Of a stretch of 64,000 bases of DNA, positions 3,003 through 50,592 are shown piece by piece. The stretch is from Gamsiella multidivaricata (Eukaryota > Mortierellomycota > Mortierellomycetes > Mortierellales > Mortierellaceae). The translations under genes and the position numbers were made by a program. The DNA is taken from NCBI RefSeq assembly GCF_025024155.1, contig NW_026251741.1, positions 248,001 to 312,000 of the forward strand, read 5' to 3'. How positions within the stretch are numbered: the first letter of the stretch is position 1; each line of letters begins with the position of its first letter. Below the pieces are notes generated by a model, which was given only the letters and a program-made list of their open reading frames with translations, was not told the origin of the DNA and did not search any database.

Positions 3003-4990
3003 TCATGGGTAGCTCCCATGGATATCTCTGGGCTGGAGGTACAGGAGCCGCTGCCGGCTAATCAGATGACCACGGACTGCATTGCTGATGTTGTAGCCGC
3101 GATGCATATATGTCTTGCACGTTGAACGATAAAGCCAGCGGATGTCAATCTGACCAACGAAATCCTCGCAGATCGAACATTTTTTTGAGGCGTAATACTA
3201 CAACAATGTAGTGATGTTCCGCAAGAGACAGCAATCACGGGGTCGCCAAGAGACATCATCGGTCACTTACCTTCTGAACGAAGTACGATTGAAACGACGA
3301 GAGTCTGGCCTTTGTAGAAAACATCCAAAGTCTTACGCTGATCACGACCTTGTTGCTGCCTTCTCTCTTGGCGCCAACTGGTCCTTCGACCAGCTTGAGA
3401 AGACGGTTGGCAATCTGCTTGTACTCCTCGTCTTGCGCCCCTTTTGCGTCCCACTTGTGTTTCTTGAGGACCATGTTGCTGTTGTAGAAGGAATCGAGAT
3501 GTATTTCCACATCCTTGAGCTTGTCGACGTAGTCTTTGATGCTTGATCCAGAGCCGCGTAGGGGGGGGGGGGCAAGTTGCTCTCGATGTTGCTGATAAAT
3601 GTCGAGTCATAGACTGGGCTGATACACCGTCTTCTGCTTGACAGCAAGGTTGAAACACTTGGGGGCCATTATCTCTCCAGATGGTTCCTTGGTCGCAATA
3701 TTCGTCCCCGTTCCTTTGTCCAGCTTAGGCCTCTCATGACTGGGTAACAAGGCACTCGCTCCTATCACGAATGCTTGCCCAAAGATCCGAGATGTCCTGC
3801 TTAGTCTTCACGATATTCCTGATCTCAGTCAAGAAATAGCCCGTGCCGCCGAGAGTAGAAGTGACGCGAGGAAGCTTGGCCAGGAAGTCGTCCGTACTTG
3901 ACCGCATTGAGTTCGTTCAGCTTGAATGTTAACAATTGGAGCCGAAACCTATCCGTCCGAAGTGAGCCGTGTAGAGCATAGCCACGCTGCTTGTAAGAGC
4001 TGGGTTCGGAGTTGTCGTCTTGAATGGCTCCAATATGCTGTCTCACCTTATCCGAAGACAACACAAAAGTCCTCGCCTTGTAGTCTCTGAGCGTTTTCTG
4101 TTGCTCTGGCGTATATCCTCCAATGTTAATGATCAGCTTGGTGATAAGATGTCCAGGCGCCTTTTCCGAGAGCCAACACGACATGTCTGTCTGCGCGATG
4201 TTTTCGGTGCTTGTGAAATCAGGCTTGGCATAGTCTTGAAGTAGTTTTTGGAAGACCATGTCTTGCCGAAAGACCTTGATCAGCTTCAGCTCCGAAAGAG
4301 ATACGAAGGCATCTTCAAAGGAGGTTAGCGGAGCCAACCTTCGGCCACTCATGCAGACCCTGTTTAGGAGAATAAAGTTCTCGATTGCTGAAATGCAATG
4401 CTATCTAGTGCATCTGCAGGCAGAAGACCTTTTGTCTTATGAGCCTCGATCTATTTTGGAAAGGATGGGCGATGTAAGCAACGTCTTCCTTGACATAATT
4501 TGGTCTGTTCACAGACGATAGCGCCGACTGAAGTTACATGTCGGTAGCTTCTTACAAAGATCTTTCGAGCCATTAATGTAATGATTCTTTAGCTCGATCG
4601 AAAGATGTTGGACAGTAGATCTCAGAATAATGGATCCAGGATACGGCATCTTTGTCCCTCCTTGGTTATGGATCGCAAGAGGTTCTTGGCTTTCTCGATG
4701 AACCAAAGGACATAGAATCCCAACCCTGAATCGGAGGGAAGTTTGGAGTTGTAGATGCACACGAGAAGCGAGAATAGGAAGCCCATTTGTTCATTTCTCA
4801 ATCTTGTCGTCGTGCATATCAAGTTCTTGGAGTTCTTGAGCAGCCTTATCGGAATCGTTGTTGCTGGCATCATCCTTGGGAATACGGGGGCAGAGTTTGC
4901 CGAGCAGGATTCTGTCTGTCTCATCGATGCCGATGGTTGAAAGGCGCTCAATGTACTGACCAATAGCTCTCTGGCAGGTACGTTTGGCTT
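3003..4990 (-). pseudogene. Decayed Fanzor (eukaryotic TnpB-like) copy
   Basis: Read on the minus strand this is a broken Fanzor-type gene. The conserved middle lies at 4352-3825 (GYALHGS, RTDRFRLQLL, FKLNELNAVKY), the later part at 3660-3270 (FNLAVKQKTVYQP, KKHKWDAKGAQDEEYKQ, FQSYFVQK), then a gtaagt donor and a last exon at about 3185-3003 with the zinc-ribbon start CSIC. It is inactive. The expected RuvC-I Asp segment is missing between the two blocks, frames change several times, one Cys of the second zinc knuckle is replaced (LYRSTC), and the 'HRD' RuvC-III Asp has become Gly (MHRG). A run of nine G at 3566 disrupts the frame. The 5' limit is uncertain; weak matching text continues to about 4750-4990. 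Family assignment rests on motif recognition. Confidence 0.7.
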
Positions 4991-26100: not shown

Positions 26101-26103
26101 AGG

Positions 26104-26480
26104 GCTGACCTTCTTGAGTCTCTAGACCTTGAATGTGAACGAGATCTGCTATTGGTACCAATCGTTGTTACAAATGATTACTCCGAGGCTCTTCCCTGGC
26201 ACGGCCTCAGTGGATGTCAAGATCGTACGGGGGATGAGAATCCAGATCGGAATAAGCGATGAATCGACAACGGACGCGCCAGGACCTAAGATGCTTTTGA
26301 CATACGACAACGCTAGCAATCATCTGGAACTAAGGGAAGAATCTCTCACAAATGTTCTCGACCAAGGCTTTCAGAGCTGCGATTGTGAGGGAGAAGGGTG
26401 GACTTGGGCGACATAGTTCCAGCATTGTTTTATGCGCTGGATCTCTGGAAATCAAAGCAAGTTACGAAATTAGGCTTTGT
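26104..26480 (+). pseudogene. Decayed, internally deleted XPG/Fanzor copy
   Basis: Two pieces match the element at 36.8-41.2 kb. At 26104-26205 the frame reads ADLLESLDLECERDLLL...NDYSEALPWHG, 23 of 34 residues equal to the XPG-like nuclease there (by eye). At 26401-26472 another frame reads DLGDIVPALFYALDLWKSKQ, the Fanzor RuvC-I block, 13 of 24 residues equal over DPGEVIPASFCALD...QVTNL. About 2.2 kb present between these points in the other copy is missing here, and stops and frameshifts interrupt what is left. It ends shortly before the octanoyltransferase gene. Confidence 0.7.
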
Positions 26481-35164: not shown

Positions 35165-35182
35165 CCGGGCAAATTTGCCCGG
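35165..35182. repeat. Left palindromic subterminal repeat
   Basis: A perfect 18-bp palindrome CCGGGCAAATTTGCCCGG lies 12 bp inside the left end; its partner is at 36086-36102. Since it reads the same on both strands it may be a transposase binding site. Confidence 0.85.
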
Positions 35183-35459
35183 TTAAAATAAAATGACAGC
35201 CTTTTTTCGTTTTGTCTCGAAATTCTGTTAAGCCACCCCTCCCTGGTCTTTAAGCTCGATCGAAAGAGCACAGGTGGAAAAGAGCACCAAGTTGGGTTAG
35301 GATACTCGGTCTGGAGTTGTGGTTGGAGGAGTACTGGTCGTTTTCTGGCAGGATAATGGACCGGTGACGATGATGACAACGATTCACGGGATTGCAGGTG
35401 CGGAATGGGAGGTCCTTCGAAACGGCGCCGACCATGAGAAACAAGTACAAACGGAGCAA

Positions 35460-36032
35460 AGGTGCGAGCAATTTTTGGTAACTCTCCCAGGAAGGAACTC
35501 AAGATCCTGAAGGTCATCGATGATTACAACTGCAATATGGGTGGAGTTGATATTGCCGACCAATTTCGATCCTACTACAGCACGCAGCAGACAACGCGGT
35601 GGAACTGGATGCCAATTTTTTTCTGGCTCTTGGATAAGACTATCATCAACACCTATCTCATAGCCCGAAAAAAAGGACCCCTTCTCACGCACAAAGAGTT
35701 TCGCAGCTCTCTTATCTGGGGGTTAATCGATTCGGTCCATACCTCAAGCAAGGCACGGCGCCACAATGCTGTGAAGGAGGAAGACGAGAACGAGGATGGC
35801 ACTGTCTGGAAACGACCTCGAGTGACAAAGAACTTTGAATTCCCCAGTGATCCGAAAGCATCGAGGGACCTGCATGCTGTGTTCTTGGAAATACCAAACC
35901 AAGCAGATCTACATGAGCCAGAAGAACCCCTTCTAAAGTAATATCTGGTGCCAGGTATGCAAGGTTCCCTTGTGTAGCAATGGCGCCAGACCTTGTTTCA
36001 AAGAATATCACACACAATCCACAGACCTGGAG
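35460..36032 (+). pseudogene. piggyBac-like transposase, C-terminal remnant
   Basis: The frame reads KELKILKVIDDYNCNMGGVD, ADQFRSYYSTQQTTRWNW and FFWLLDKTIINTYLIA, typical of the end of the piggyBac DDE domain (DDE_Tnp_1_7), then an acidic linker (KEEDENEDGTVWKRPRVTK). After the stop at 35939 the text WCQVCKVPLCSNGARPCFKEYH can be read in another frame, matching the C-terminal Cys-rich finger, which indicates a frameshift near the end. The N-terminal two thirds, with most catalytic Asp residues, are absent. Confidence 0.8.
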
Positions 36033-36120
36033 TAAAAAACTTTGAATAATTTACATGACTGTAGCACAGGGAAATTTTCATTTTGCCGGGCAAATTTGCC
36101 CGTCACGTCGTACAGAGTAA

Positions 36121-36766: not shown

Positions 36767-39741
36767 ATGGGAGTCACTGGGCTACTCAAAGCTATAAAAG
36801 ACACCGAAGGAACGCTAGCTTATGATCTGCAGAGCAAGAAAGTTCATGTCGATGTCTTGAGTCAGTACTTTGGATTCTTGCAAACAAGGGCCTTCAAAAT
36901 GACGTGTAAAAGAGTCGCCAAGGAAGCGAGAGCTGAGGCAACGGCTACGACAACTACTAGCGCATCAGCGGCTTCCATTCTACCAGAAACGACGACATTT
37001 CTCGCAGTGCCCACAGCCCCCGCAGTCTCCACAGCCTCAACAGCGCAAGACACGTCTTCTGTTGCAGACGCCGGCACTAGCAGGAGAAGCAACATCAAGA
37101 AGTGCGCCTTGAGTTTCTCCGAGGCTCCATCCAAGCGAGGAAAGGCATGCCCTAGTTATGCGAGCGAGGTACAGGCTGCAGGGGCGCAACATCCTGCACT
37201 GTTCATTGGCCCTAATGGACGATTGACACCAGACCGACCTGGAATAACAGAGCAGGTAATTAAATGTGCCAATGGTTTCGTATCAGCTTGCGCAGCATAG
37301 CAACCAAGTGCTGACACATGTTCTGTTGTTTCATCCTTCGATCCTGCCTCATCTCTAGTCACAGAATTACGGCCATATAGTGCACGACCTCAACAAAATC
37401 ATGTCAAAGCACTTTAGCAAATCAACCACGGTTCTACACTTTGACGGAAAGGCCTCGATACAAAAGTCCCAGGAGCGACAAGATCGGGCCATATCCCTCA
37501 GCAACCGGATCAAGACTCTGGAGGTGCGAGTTGACAACGCCATAGGAAAAAACAACGGTTCTTTGGGCCCCCTGTACAAGCAATGTCGAAACGCGTACAA
37601 GACATCCAAGGCAGCGTTGGCAGACATAAGAAATGGGCTGGAGACCTTGGAGTGGCACACTTGCGAATGTCCCTTCCAAGCAGACACGCACATTGCTGAG
37701 TTGTATCAAGCTGATAACAACAAAGACGACCTCGCAATCATTACCGCCGACAGTGATATGATGGTATATCAAGGTGTTAGAGAAATCACTATACCCGTCG
37801 GAAAGTACCGAGCGCTCACCACGTACAAGAAGCCTGACCTGCTCGAGTCTCTAGACCATGCATGTGACCGTGAGCTGTTGCTGGCATCAATCATTACTAA
37901 GAACGACTACTCCAAGGCACTCCCGTGGCACGGCTTCCAAAGAAATATCAAGATCATCCGAGAGATGAGGACCGAGACCAGAGCAGGCGATGGATCGACC
38001 ATGGACGCGCCAGGATCCAAGACGACTGAGGCTGGCATTATCAAGGAGCTGATCCAGGAGTATTTACAACGGGCGAGAGGAGGACAAAACAAGAGTGTGG
38101 ACGACTACACCCACGCCATTTCGGCTTTTGTTCAAGTGCGTGAGGACTATCTTGACTCCGCTACGCCATCGTGCACGACCCATGAGAAAATACGGAGCAT
38201 ACTCCAGAAGCTCGAGAAGTGCAAGCTGCAAAGGAGAAATATGACTCGAGCCTCGCGGACAAAGCCTCCAGCCGACACACTCGCCAGCGACACTTCTGCA
38301 GGCTTGGCGTTTTCTTCCCCTGTCCAACGCAGCCTGCAGACGCCTGGACAGCAGACGATTCTTCAGGTCCGACGCCGTCGCCGCAGACACAAGAAAGGGA
38401 ACGCCCAGCAACGGAGAAAGCGACGTCCCAAAGGCAAAGCAAGACGTAAGAAAGTCCGGGAGGCAAAATGGAGACGAAGCAGGTATGATTGTCGTATGAC
38501 TTTGTTAGCGAGTTCAAATTCATTACGACCTTTTACAGCTTTGTCGCTTTGGTACAATCATCTTATTGATATTTTCTTTTTTTTTTTTTTTTAATTTTTG
38601 GGATTGTCCCTTAGGTACAAGAGCAGGAACGGAGATGCCAACTCTCGTTATTCCCCTCATGTTGTCATGGACGTCAGCCACTCATGCTCGGTCGACAAGA
38701 TCGCATTGGAAAAGATGTCCATCGAGGAACCGCGCCCGCGGAAGAAGAAGGACGGAAGCATGGATGACAATCCTAAGGCCGCGAGTGAAACCAAGACGAA
38801 GTTCAAGGAGGACGAGGAGAATGGTGAAAAAGTGGAGAGGCCAGCTGGAGCTAACCTGACTAAGCACCTGTTCGGGGAGGCTTTCAAGACTGCCACAATG
38901 ACTGAAGGGTCGATCACAGGGTGCCTGCACCGCGCCACGAAGCTGAACGTAGTCCAGACCAAGATCGTCGCGGAACGCATCAGCGAGGCGGTCCGCATCA
39001 TGAGCCAAGCTCGTATTCTCGTGTTTAAAGCGCTCGAACTTTTTCTCTACAAGGAGGTCAGCACTACCACCATATCTAATTCAGATCAAGCGCGCCCGAC
39101 ACCAGATCAGAACTTGGGCACTGATGTCAATCAAGCGAGTGCTCCGAAAGTCCAGCACAAGGAGGAAAAGGACGCGGACCCACTTGATCTCATTCTGCAC
39201 AAGGCACATGGAGAAACTATCATCAAAAATCTGATCTCTTTGATTCTGAATGGTCCAGTAGCGCCTCGCGGGAGACCACCTAAAGGCTCGGCGGCAATTC
39301 AGGCGAAAACAATTGCGCGCTCGATTTATGACGATTTCCTGAGCGTTCTTTCAGATTGCGCACCGACAAAGGGCTGCCAAGATATACCCCTGAGCGTCAT
39401 CCAGGCGGAACTGGCGGTGAAGGTCCGGACCGCGGTTCGGGAGCATTTCCAGAGACTGCCCAAGTTCATTGTGAACAAGGTAACATTTCCACTGTCCGGA
39501 ACAAGATGTATCTCGCGTCGATTTGCTTTTCCACTGTGAACTTACGTTTATTTCTTGTCTCTATTAGCTGAAGCGTGCTCGTTTATTCACGGATGATATT
39601 CCTCCAGTTGAGGATGACGAGAGCTCCGATGGCGATAAACAGAAAGACAAGATGTCATGTAAGAAGGGGCACATCCAAACTTGGTGGAGGTTCTTTCTCC
39701 GTGTGCCATCGGAGTTGCGTCCTGTTTCCTGTCCAGTGTAG
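36767..39741 (+). CDS. XPG/FEN-like nuclease reading into Fanzor N-terminal half
   Basis: Exons 36767-37255, 37359-38482, 38615-39479 and 39568-39741 join in phase to 883 residues, ended by an in-frame TAG. MGVTGLLKAI and VHVDVLSQYFGF are the XPG/FEN N-domain start; a Thr/Ala-rich linker follows. The I-domain has FDG (D192), FQADTHIA (D272; the usual preceding Glu is Gln), TADSDMMVY (D294, D296) and NDYSKALPWHG (D346) in the place of the helix-hairpin metal ligand. These are the metal-binding acids of flap endonucleases, so activity is plausible. Basic and acidic linkers then lead to a region (FGEAFKTATMTEGSITGCLH, RSIYDDFLSVLSDC) and FFLRVPSELRPVSCPV, which continues after the TAG as the Fanzor protein. 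In an intact copy this would be one large protein with two nucleases. The role of the XPG part in such elements is not known to me. Confidence 0.72.
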
Positions 39742-41234
39742 AAGTTGGGAGACTCTTTCATCTTGTGCTCTGAGGCCGCCATTCTTCCACTTCTTTGGGG
39801 TAGTCCACATTCAAAGACGCACCCCACGCGGCATATCATGGAATCTCAAGTCTGCTCTTCCGGGAGGGCCCACGAACTTGCATCAGAGAAGTATGGGGAG
39901 CTTTTCCGACTACTGTTTATCGGAGGCAAGGTCGAGATCAAGACGAATCCCCTCAAGAACCAGACTTCATGTGGCAAGAAAACAACGACCATGAACCGAT
40001 TGCTGAAGGACTATCCAAACACATACGGCCAAGCCGCACTCGATGAGTACATGAAGAAGGTCTTTGCATATCACAAGGCTAGGAAGCAAGCAGCTGCCGA
40101 AGGCACGGAGCCCCCCGCGCCCCCTGACTCCCCAAGTAATGACAGCGTTAAGGAGCACTATGCCATCAGCAATATGATGAGAACAGACGGAGTCCAGCTC
40201 CACCTAATGGCATTTGACATACGGAGATGTTGGCAGTCGTCCAAAATTAAGGCGTGGATCCCGGAGATTACATCGCGATTTCCTAACAAAGGTTCTCTCG
40301 CAAAGGCTTTCGATCAAGACCTCCAGAATGTTGTGGTTGTGGGGGTGGACCCCGGTGAAGTAATTCCAGCATCATTTTGTGCGTTGGACCCCCGAAAACC
40401 GAACCAAGTCACGAACCTGCCTATCAGACGCTCCGCTCTCTACAGTCCCAACTTGTCATTCAGAGCCGCGCTGGAGGCCAAAAAACGCGAACGGGCCACT
40501 GTTACAATCAAAGACGATGCAGGATTGAGTGGGGACACATGCGAGATGCCTAGCATATCGGAATTGAAAGCCTCGCTGCCGTCATCGTCGTTCGTAAGCA
40601 TGGAAGAAACCGGCATGGCCTCCGACAGTTCAGCTATGTCCTACAACCACTTCGCGATTTTTACGGATCCCGTTCGATGAAAAAAAAGCTGTGGGAGCTC
40701 AAAATGGCGAACCGGGCAGAGAAGGATCATGCCGTGCATGGGCATTGCGAACTGTGGACCCACAAGGCGGGATACATACTGGGCCAACGAGACCGGCGAT
40801 ATTTATATACGGGTCAGAAAAGTTCAACACCCATACCAAGCTGGCATCGCTACACGAGAGCTTCAAGGGGTATTTTTTCCACAAGGTATGTTGTTATAAA
40901 CATATTTATTGCGATTTGCTTGCTTTCAATCCAGTATCGATACTGATGCCATGTTTCAGCATGCCATTGCACTACATAGGCAAACAGCCTCGGGTACACC
41001 GTCGTTTGTTCAGATGAGTATCTCACGTCATCGAAATGCCCGAGCTGTGTACGACAAAACAAGGACCGAAGAATGGCAAAGCCAGCGAATCGGGCGTTCG
41101 TCTGTCTCGAGGATGGGTGCCAAAGATGGCTAGACAGGGACTGCGTGGGCGCCCAGAATTTGGCTAATATTGGTCTCGAATGGATCAGTAGCCTGTCTCG
41201 CCCAGAGCCCCTCCGCCGATCCCAGCAAGAATAA
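39742..41234 (+). pseudogene. Fanzor (TnpB-like) RuvC and zinc-ribbon half, broken
   Basis: Directly after the TAG at 39739 the same frame goes on (KLGDSFILCSEAAILPLLW). The RuvC-I motif VVVGVDPGEVIPASFCALDP has its Asp codon at 40348. The frame then shifts near 40670 (to KKKLWELKMANRAEK), again near 40737 (to IFIYGSEKFNTHTKLASLHE, FKGYFFHK), then comes an intron (gtatgt...tttcag, about 40887-40959), and a last shift near 41005 before DEYLTSSKCPSC, FVCLEDGCQRWLDRDCVGAQ and N. The zinc ribbon and RuvC-III Asp are therefore intact in sequence. One nonsense codon and three shifts make this copy inactive unless they are assembly errors. Fanzors are eukaryotic relatives of TnpB, RNA-guided DNA endonucleases found in transposons. 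Confidence 0.8.
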
Positions 41235-41903
41235 CTGTACTGGCCGTGTCAGTTAAAATTTATCCTAGGTGACTGTCTCTCTTTCCAGTTGAGACGGTCT
41301 AAGGGATAAAGAATCAGAACGCGTCTTGTCGCACAAGGAGAAGCAAATGCGATTGGCCGAAATAGTGCTGTGTTGATCATACTGCGCTTCATAAAATTTT
41401 AAATGAAGGCGACTGGCCAAAACAATGGCAATGGATATTAATATGGCACTCGATCTCCATCTAATGTCGGATTTCATCATAAATGCATACTACCTGTTGA
41501 GTAGTAATCATGAATAAGAATAAGGAAAAGAAAGAGAATGAGAGATAGAAGGGGAAGCGTTGAATGCTCTCGCCCACGTGGTCAGCCATGCACAGCGGCC
41601 AAATCCAACCCTCCTATTTTATTTATTAACAATTTGTTTTGGAATAATTACTGAGACCTTGTTGTAGCTCTTCCTTTTATTTGAAGCATGATCGATTTAC
41701 AGCTGCCATAAAGCATATTATTCTTCTCGAGCTTGCGCGACAATTTACATCACCAGTGTGTCAATAGTCAAAGAAAACTGCAAGAAAAGATTTTTTTTTT
41801 TTTTTTTATAAAACTGCAAGAGAAGAAATATCCACTTCATTACTTTCATACTTTTCGAGCGACACACCTTCTGCAGTAATTCCAGCAGTGCTCAATTCAA
41901 AAC
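41235..41903. other. Spacer 3' of the Fanzor element
   Basis: No gene is seen. A T-run at about 41791-41808 is present. If the element encoded a guide RNA, it would be expected around the end of the Fanzor frame and in this flank, but I cannot delimit one. Confidence 0.4.
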
Positions 41904-41923: not shown

Positions 41924-42921
41924 TTTTTTTTTTTTTTTTTATTAACGAGAACCCTCATAGACATGGGGCTTATTAACTATGGTCTGAAGGAGTCCTACAG
42001 GTGGGACAGAAAATAAACAGCGTACTGCCCGTCCCAACTAGCGCCGCGACGGATCCTTGGTTTCATAATCTACAACCGCATGAGTGGCGTGCCAAAGGCT
42101 CCTGCTCCCTACGTGGCCTGTTGTGCGCGAAGGTCATCCTTTAGCCACGGTCCTCTGACATTTTATAGAAGCGGCATCCTCCCAGCCGCTCCACCACGTC
42201 CAAACGCTGTTGTCCAAAATAATACCGCAGCACCCTCTCATCCGCGGTGTCGTTGATTTCTTTCCCCTCGGGTGCTTATCGTTGCCTCAGGGTAGATCCC
42301 ATAAAATCATTGCTGCTACGTCTGTGCTCTCCAACACAGTTGCGTCCCCGGGCGCGTTTGCTCGCAGCGGTGATCCCATGTTCACGTTCCCAGTCGACGG
42401 TGGCTTTGCATCTTCTGTTCCAGATCTCAGTCCGCCCGATCTCCTCAATGGCCTTCACAAAACGGTGTACCATGTACGTTGCAATTCGTTCCGTAGTGCT
42501 GAAAATGCGTTTCCATGTCTGTACCATGCACTTTGGAGTCAGTCCGTGGTACAAATCCTGCACGGCCCACTCAACTCCCTCGAAACCTTCTTCTGCCTCT
42601 GTTGCTGCCTCTGCCCTGCGTATCTCCCGCACTTCGCGGAACGTGACCCCGAGTGCTTCCCACATGACGTCTCTTCCGGCCTCCTTAAAAGTCGGTGGGG
42701 TGCGTTGACTGACGTCCTTTCCCTTCTCTGCCGCTTTCCTTGTCTCCTGTTCCCATTTTTTCTTTGCACTTCTCCATGCTCTTGCTCCAACCGCATTCAT
42801 CTTTCTTAACTCGTCAGACCACTGCTCTTGTTGTCTCGCCAGTGTCGCCGGGCAACGCCATAGATGACGAGTGTCCTCTATTTCCTGTTCAAACACTCTA
42901 CACTCGTCGGTGGGATATAGG
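41924..42921 (-). mobile_element. 5'-truncated LINE (non-LTR retrotransposon), copy 1
   Basis: A 998-bp insertion starts on the plus strand with a T run (the poly(A) tail of a minus-strand element) and ends abruptly, with a 20-bp target-site duplication on both sides. The minus strand is open at 42896-42276: TRHLWRCPATLARQQEQW, KCMVQTWKRIFSTTERIATY, FVKAIEEIGRTEIWNRRCKA, EREHGITAASKRARGRNCVG, which I read as the region after the reverse transcriptase of a LINE ORF2 (the Cys-His pattern near TRHLWRC resembles its C-terminal zinc knuckle). The reverse transcriptase itself is missing. A second copy lies at 49084. Confidence 0.85.
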
Positions 42922-42941
42922 ACCAGGACCCAGCAGGAGAC

Positions 42942-43701
42942 CAGGGTCGTTTCCTTCGACTTTTTTTTTTTGTATAACAGCTCATCCCTCGAGTCGAGTC
43001 GATTGACCCTGCGAGTCTACCAGGCCTAATTAGCAACTATCTACTACAGTCGTCCTTCCACTAAAGCATAAACGGTCCATGGTCGCTAAAAGACAAGTCA
43101 CATTCCCAGAGCCTGCGCATTGCTACACCTCATCAGTGTGCTAAAAGCTAAAGACTACTTATCACAAAAGGGCATTTCCCTCATTTCCTTCCTGGTTACC
43201 AACCGTCCCCCTTCCTTACAAGCAGTCCATAGCGTCCGATTCGCAGCATTAGAACCCAGCACGAGGCTAGGGTATCATCCGTTTGTATGATCAGCGAGCA
43301 TCGCACTACAAGGGCAGTTCTCAACACTGCAAATGTATGCTTTTTTTTTTTTTCTTTTTTTTTTCTTCTTCTTTGGTAAATAAGGACTCTCAAGGGCATG
43401 TGAAGCGTTGCAACTGTGTCCATAGCCCTTGCTTCAGCCCTCGTATTCATATAATTTACCAGAAAACGCACAAAAAACTAGAGTCGCACATGAGAAACCG
43501 CTAATTATGGCTCCAAAAAAATTCTAAAATTACGTTGGAGCTCCAGATGATAGCCGTCAGCATTTAAAAGCTGTTTAAACCTTCAAATGGGCAGAAAATG
43601 GGGCCCAAGGCCATCAAAGCTCAATGTGGTAAAAGCTGCTGTGCGGAGTTTGCTATGGAAATATATAGTAAAATAAGCTGAAGCTTTCATGATCACGTGG
43701 T
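42942..43701. other. Spacer before tRNA-Pro
   Basis: No gene is seen; T runs at about 42960 and 43340-43371 may be old retrotransposon tails. Confidence 0.45.
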
Positions 43702-43773
43702 GGCCTAATGGTCTAGTCGTATGATTCTCGCTTTGGGTGCGAGAGGTCCCGGGTTCAATTCCCGGTTGGGCCC
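43702..43773 (+). tRNA. tRNA-Pro (TGG)
   Basis: 72 nt fold as a cloverleaf. Acceptor GGCCTAA pairs with TTGGGCC (one G-T pair), the anticodon stem CTCGC/GCGAG holds loop TTTGGGT with anticodon TGG at 43734-43736, and the T arm is CCGGG-TTCAATT-CCCGG. A-box (TGGTCTAG) and B-box (GGTTCAATTCC) are good matches. No intron and, as expected for a nuclear gene, no encoded CCA. It is identical over its full length to the gene at 50521 on the other strand. Confidence 0.96.
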
Positions 43774-43853
43774 CGATCTATCTTTTATTTTGTTGGCGAG
43801 CTGGTGGTTCTCATCATCGTTATTGTCCTATTTGGCAACCCGCCCTGGGATTA

Positions 43854-50520: not shown

Positions 50521-50592
50521 GGGCCCAACCGGGAATTGAACCCGGGACCTCTCGCACCCAAAGCGAGAATCATACGACTAGACCATTAGGCC
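50521..50592 (-). tRNA. tRNA-Pro (TGG), inverted second copy
   Basis: The complement gives the same 72-nt cloverleaf as 43702-43773 with anticodon TGG; I find no difference. A few flanking bases also agree (gtggt before, gatcta after), so it looks like a recent inverted duplicate or a pair kept identical by conversion. Confidence 0.96.

Follow-up and report, generated by a model that had tools for sequence, protein, structure and literature searches.

The 64,000-nucleotide stretch of Gamsiella multidivaricata DNA analysed here (contig NW_026251741.1, positions 248,001 to 312,000; called the window) carries on its forward strand, at 36767–41234, a copy of a gene that joins an N-terminal nuclease domain of the XPG/FEN type to a Fanzor, a eukaryotic relative of TnpB. 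Related genes in several species of the Mortierellaceae, a family of soil fungi, encode fusion proteins of about 1,000–1,300 residues; as judged from sequence, genome context and predicted models, the family has both domains in the same order in one annotated protein, with conserved active sites and a mobile element with a fixed right end. The guide RNA, the cutting and the end processing considered below, and with them the job of the pairing, are what we infer.

Structure and decay of the window copy

Four exons on the forward strand make up most of the gene. Exon 1 (36767–37255) encodes the XPG/FEN-like N-terminus (MGVTGLL and the first metal-site Asp) and a low-complexity insert, and exon 2 (37359–38482) the remaining core with the DG, QAD, DSD and NDY motifs and then, at about 38363–38482, a stretch rich in Arg and Lys. 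Exon 3 (38615–39479) contains a linker and the N-terminal helical part of the Fanzor, which continues in exon 4 (39568–40680) to just beyond RuvC-I (VVVGVDPGE, Asp codon at 40348–40350). The introns (37256–37358, 38483–38614 and 39480–39567; 103, 132 and 88 bases) are all of the GT...AG type, and exons 1–4 joined give a single open frame of 883 codons. The exon bounds proposed in the first-pass annotation were thus exact, and the splice sites are largely kept in 10 further copies (L009–L018): GT follows exons 1, 2 and 3 in all ten and AG precedes exon 2 in all ten, with AG before exon 3 in 7/10 as aligned. RuvC-I, also as proposed, lies in the exon 4 reading frame and is joined in phase with the XPG/FEN exons, with a premature TAG (39739–39741) interrupting exon 4.

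Downstream the frame is lost. An out-of-frame RuvC region (40681–40885, from three-frame translations) is followed by a likely fourth GT...AG intron (40886–40979), read from the sequence, and by a last exon (40980–41234) with the alternative catalytic Glu, the C4 zinc ribbon (TSSKCPSC), RuvC-III (LDRDCVGAQN) and a stop codon at 41232–41234, whose last base is the end point given earlier for the gene. The zinc ribbon and RuvC-III had been placed in one frame with RuvC-I, which does not hold for the window copy: from about 40680 to about 40820 the frame breaks two or more times, the likely fourth intron follows, and the last exon is in a different frame from RuvC-I. The zinc ribbon of relatives is likewise found in a separate open reading frame. 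Because of the TAG in exon 4, the frame breaks and the out-of-frame ribbon, the window copy is a pseudogene. The same is true of 10 close copies, in which this gene model meets its first stop at codon 16 to 666, the 883 codons of the window copy being the longest run. The TAG site is open in all 8 other copies that cover it; L017 has a small deletion. The window copy is a broken member of one subfamily.

Two nuclease domains in one protein

Pfam gave no match above its cut-off on the window exons. A profile built from four divergent family members, in contrast, matched the yeast Rad2 structure (8.9e-11) and FEN1 (5.6e-7, over profile positions 1–278). Identity to the XPG/Rad2 superfamily is low, about 14–19%. 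P0004, a 504-residue protein annotated for a close copy, has an AlphaFold model with a mean predicted local distance difference test score of 76.8, with 283 residues at 90 or above and low confidence at residues 80–172. Foldseek matched this model to FEN1 (8.6e-10), and all 50 rows listed were FEN1, EXO1, XPG or Rad2; for a second AlphaFold model, P0015, the FEN-like fold match extends to residue 309. The earlier assignment of the PIN-like part to the XPG/FEN nucleases is in this way borne out by the profile and by two models with FEN1/EXO1 matches. The metal site has counterparts for all seven carboxylates, and six positions hold Asp wherever a row has a letter, in alignments of 20 and 21 rows. 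At the seventh position, relatives that do not belong to the window's subfamily have Glu (11/11 and 17/17 rows with a letter), and that subfamily and its closest relatives have Gln (9/9 rows; residue 279 of P0004 and the corresponding column of P0002, P0003 and P0005–P0010). For the window's subfamily the relationship to XPG/FEN enzymes is clear, and its nuclease activity may be full or reduced.

FEN/EXO1-type enzymes act also on RNA-containing strands, and with the Gln in place of the metal-site Glu this favours the idea that the domain processes the guide RNA or merely holds DNA, its nuclease unused at a guided break. We consider this improbable, since the six active-site Asp are invariant, Glu is kept in the other families and the FEN exon is under purifying selection. 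The ratio of nonsynonymous to synonymous substitution rates is 0.28 in this exon (37359–38158; 0.037 against 0.131, from eleven copies and 55 pairs that are not independent), compared with 0.42 in Fanzor exon 4 (36 pairs) and 0.52–0.53 in the regions between. Elsewhere in the window, 26101–26211 (+) encodes a FEN-like fragment of 37 residues with 62% identity.

The Fanzor part has its RuvC-I Asp in a DPG motif in the window (GVDPGE) and in family 2. The RuvC-II Glu stands six residues ahead of the zinc ribbon and is followed by TSxxC (window SDEYLTSSKCPSC, out of frame with RuvC-I); the Glu with a [TS][TS]xxC zinc-ribbon motif was read in 27/75 database homologues, in the same motif order as in the window. 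The RD of RuvC-III comes after the C4 zinc ribbon, as LDRDCVGAQN in the window and as HRDxMA in 30/75 homologues. The DPG, the Glu six residues before the ribbon, TSxxC and the RuvC-III RD are Fanzor features according to the available portions of PMC10711439 and PMC3627910. A TNB match in Pfam was found in 25/42 homologues scanned, and the predicted model of a relative matches SpuFz. The exon 4 stretch 39742–40677 has 52 matches in the genome, and a further Fanzor fragment lies at 3265–4385 (-) of the window.

Both domains occur in one annotated protein in 38/75 homologues; they are not consistently separate genes, in keeping with the proposal that one gene encodes both. In the other 37 no FEN part is seen: their match starts no earlier than reference position 240, and in 8 of them at 240–280, close to where the FEN part ends; such proteins favour a different view, that two adjacent genes of one mobile element, one for a FEN-like nuclease and one for a Fanzor, were merged by gene prediction. 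The 8 could be split or separate genes. In 35 of the 37 there are at most 32 residues ahead of the match, and such short N-termini would fit truncated, partial or split gene models. Set against a merger are the 38 single proteins, the window exons that stay in phase over three introns, and the exon 2/exon 3 join, annotated identically in P0003 (Gamsiella) and P0005 (Mortierella sp. GBAus27b). The fold match of P0015 to residue 309 argues the same way: in L031 an intron, as we read the sequence, precedes the stretch corresponding to the last FEN-fold helices, which would therefore share an exon with the linker. A merger is accordingly very unlikely.

Pairing was also counted over the 37-Mb genome, where 70/102 FEN-like loci are paired with a Fanzor in the same order and on the same strand, against a null mean of 0.9 and a maximum of 6 in 1000. 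The pairing exceeds chance, and with 70 paired loci in one genome the fusion family is large. The 283-residue annotated protein P0011 (Mortierella sp. GBAus27b) has a FEN piece joined to an apparent Fanzor piece. Copies that seem intact occur in Entomortierella parvispora (P0024), Benniella (P0047) and Podila verticillata (P0049), and P0027 is an example with an intact RuvC.

A multi-copy element with a fixed right end

The element that carries the gene has a sharp right end: of the nine family-1 copies whose right end was printed, eight finish no more than 3 bases away from ...ACGGTCTAAGGGATA, and L011 finishes earlier. In the diverged copy L027 this end is preserved except for a single change. 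Family 2 ends in ...AGATACTGTA in 6/6 copies, after which the flanks are unlike. Left ends are ragged. The first-pass description as one mobile gene is apt for the family and fails for the broken window copy. Between the stop codon and the right end lies a 3' tail (41235–41308, +) with a terminal hairpin. The last 75 bases (41234–41308) fold with a z of -2.81 (0/200 shuffles as good), and this length equals that of the PpFz1 guide RNA, given as 75 nt in the accessible part of PMC11423790. The 75-nt tail is a candidate guide-RNA scaffold.

Nested on the left of the window copy is a piggyBac-like remnant (35166–36102). It has 29-base inverted repeats that are 86% complementary and an open reading frame with a weak, below-cut-off DDE_Tnp_1_7 match, and it is also matched in copies L009, L010 and L014. 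Beyond this remnant no transposase was seen in the family-1 element, among the few open reading frames run on Pfam. A multi-copy gene with a fixed right and a ragged left end, in an element with no further transposase seen, would also suit a single protein whose FEN domain serves transposition itself, e.g., by removing flaps from donor or target ends, rather than the Fanzor cut. This explanation is less attractive but has some plausibility; the fusion partner is a Fanzor, not a transposase, and L024 has a DDE-type candidate of its own. There, a 701-residue open reading frame (747–2849) with a weak DDE_3 match lies directly upstream of the FEN-Fanzor gene and may be the transposase of that element.

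Possible mechanism, known systems and neighbouring features

We favour the view that the Mortierellaceae have a Fanzor1 clade with an N-terminal XPG/FEN/EXO1-type nuclease, which probably couples a guided cut to 5' trimming within a multi-copy mobile element. The C-terminal Fanzor would bind a guide RNA, the scaffold of which would run to the element's right end, and the Fanzor RuvC domain would cut DNA matching the guide. At the break, the tethered FEN/EXO1-like site would then trim the 5' strand or the flap, and repair from an element-bearing template would keep or copy the element. RuvC cut, 5' trimming and templated repair appear the likeliest order of events. More tentatively, the protein could be a natural two-nuclease homing machine, in which a guided cut and 5' resection of the EXO1/FEN1 type bias repair so that the element is copied from a homologous template. 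Artificial counterparts of such a machine are the guided nucleases that have been engineered as exonuclease fusions.

Several observations weigh against this coupled reading, in addition to the FEN-less homologues, the Gln at the metal site and the pseudogene state of the window copy and of 10 close copies. The coupling of the two nuclease activities is itself something that we infer. The Foldseek superpositions on FEN structures are loose (TM-scores 0.26–0.38 by query, root-mean-square deviations 5–22). The RuvC-I motif is D[L/G/A/M]G in the 48/75 homologues read by regular expression (27/75 were not read), and none of them has DPG. Unpaired loci amount to 64/133 for Fanzor and 32/102 for FEN-like sequences. 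As for the tail, the last 100 and 150 bases fold more weakly (z -1.67 and -1.21), covariation in the terminal hairpin of the family-1 tail is no greater than in shuffles, and the family-2 tail folds no better than shuffles. The reading of a FEN and Fanzor pairing made in the first-pass annotation is supported, and its description of the sequence is confirmed in part.

The fusion shares with Fanzor1 (SpuFz1, GtFz1, PpFz1) a RuvC domain with the alternative Glu beside a C4 zinc ribbon, the RuvC-III RD, a helical N-lobe, the model match to SpuFz and carriage by mobile elements in fungi; it differs in having about 300 further residues at the N-terminus, which form an XPG/FEN nuclease domain. The extra FRI domain of PpFz1, which binds cyclophilin, is described in the available part of PMC11423790 as a RuvC insertion and is unrelated to the FEN domain. 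The MCi-2 Fanzor elements of Mucor circinelloides resemble the fusion elements in being multi-copy, with constant 3' and variable 5' regions and no recognizable terminal inverted repeats, and differ in that a FEN-like domain is not reported for them in the portion of the paper available (PMC3627910; Bao and Jurka, 2013), a comparison by description and not by sequence. Relative to the XPG/Rad2 superfamily (FEN1, EXO1, XPG/Rad2, GEN1), the family stands apart in its fusion to a Fanzor, its several subfamilies and the Gln at one metal-site position in that of the window.

A preprint mentions "Fanzor flap endonuclease homologs (Fendons)" in animal-virus contigs, in the available text without architecture (PMC11071296). 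The name joins both activities, is ambiguous as to a fusion and may mean that something of this kind had been noticed before; no relative turned up when viral contigs were scanned with the FEN part. Apart from this ambiguous sentence, literature searches, in the text they returned, gave no description of a FEN-Fanzor fusion, and the pairing looks new. A built-in end-processing nuclease would point to break repair as the key step in what Fanzors do for the elements that carry them. Guided nucleases that include their own resection activity could then be modelled on this natural family.

Downstream of the element, an open reading frame at 42276–43016 (-) with no Pfam match encodes a Cys/His-rich stretch reminiscent of the tails that reverse transcriptases of non-LTR retrotransposons have. 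The window also contains two tRNA-Pro(TGG) genes, at 43702–43774 (+) and 50521–50592 (-).
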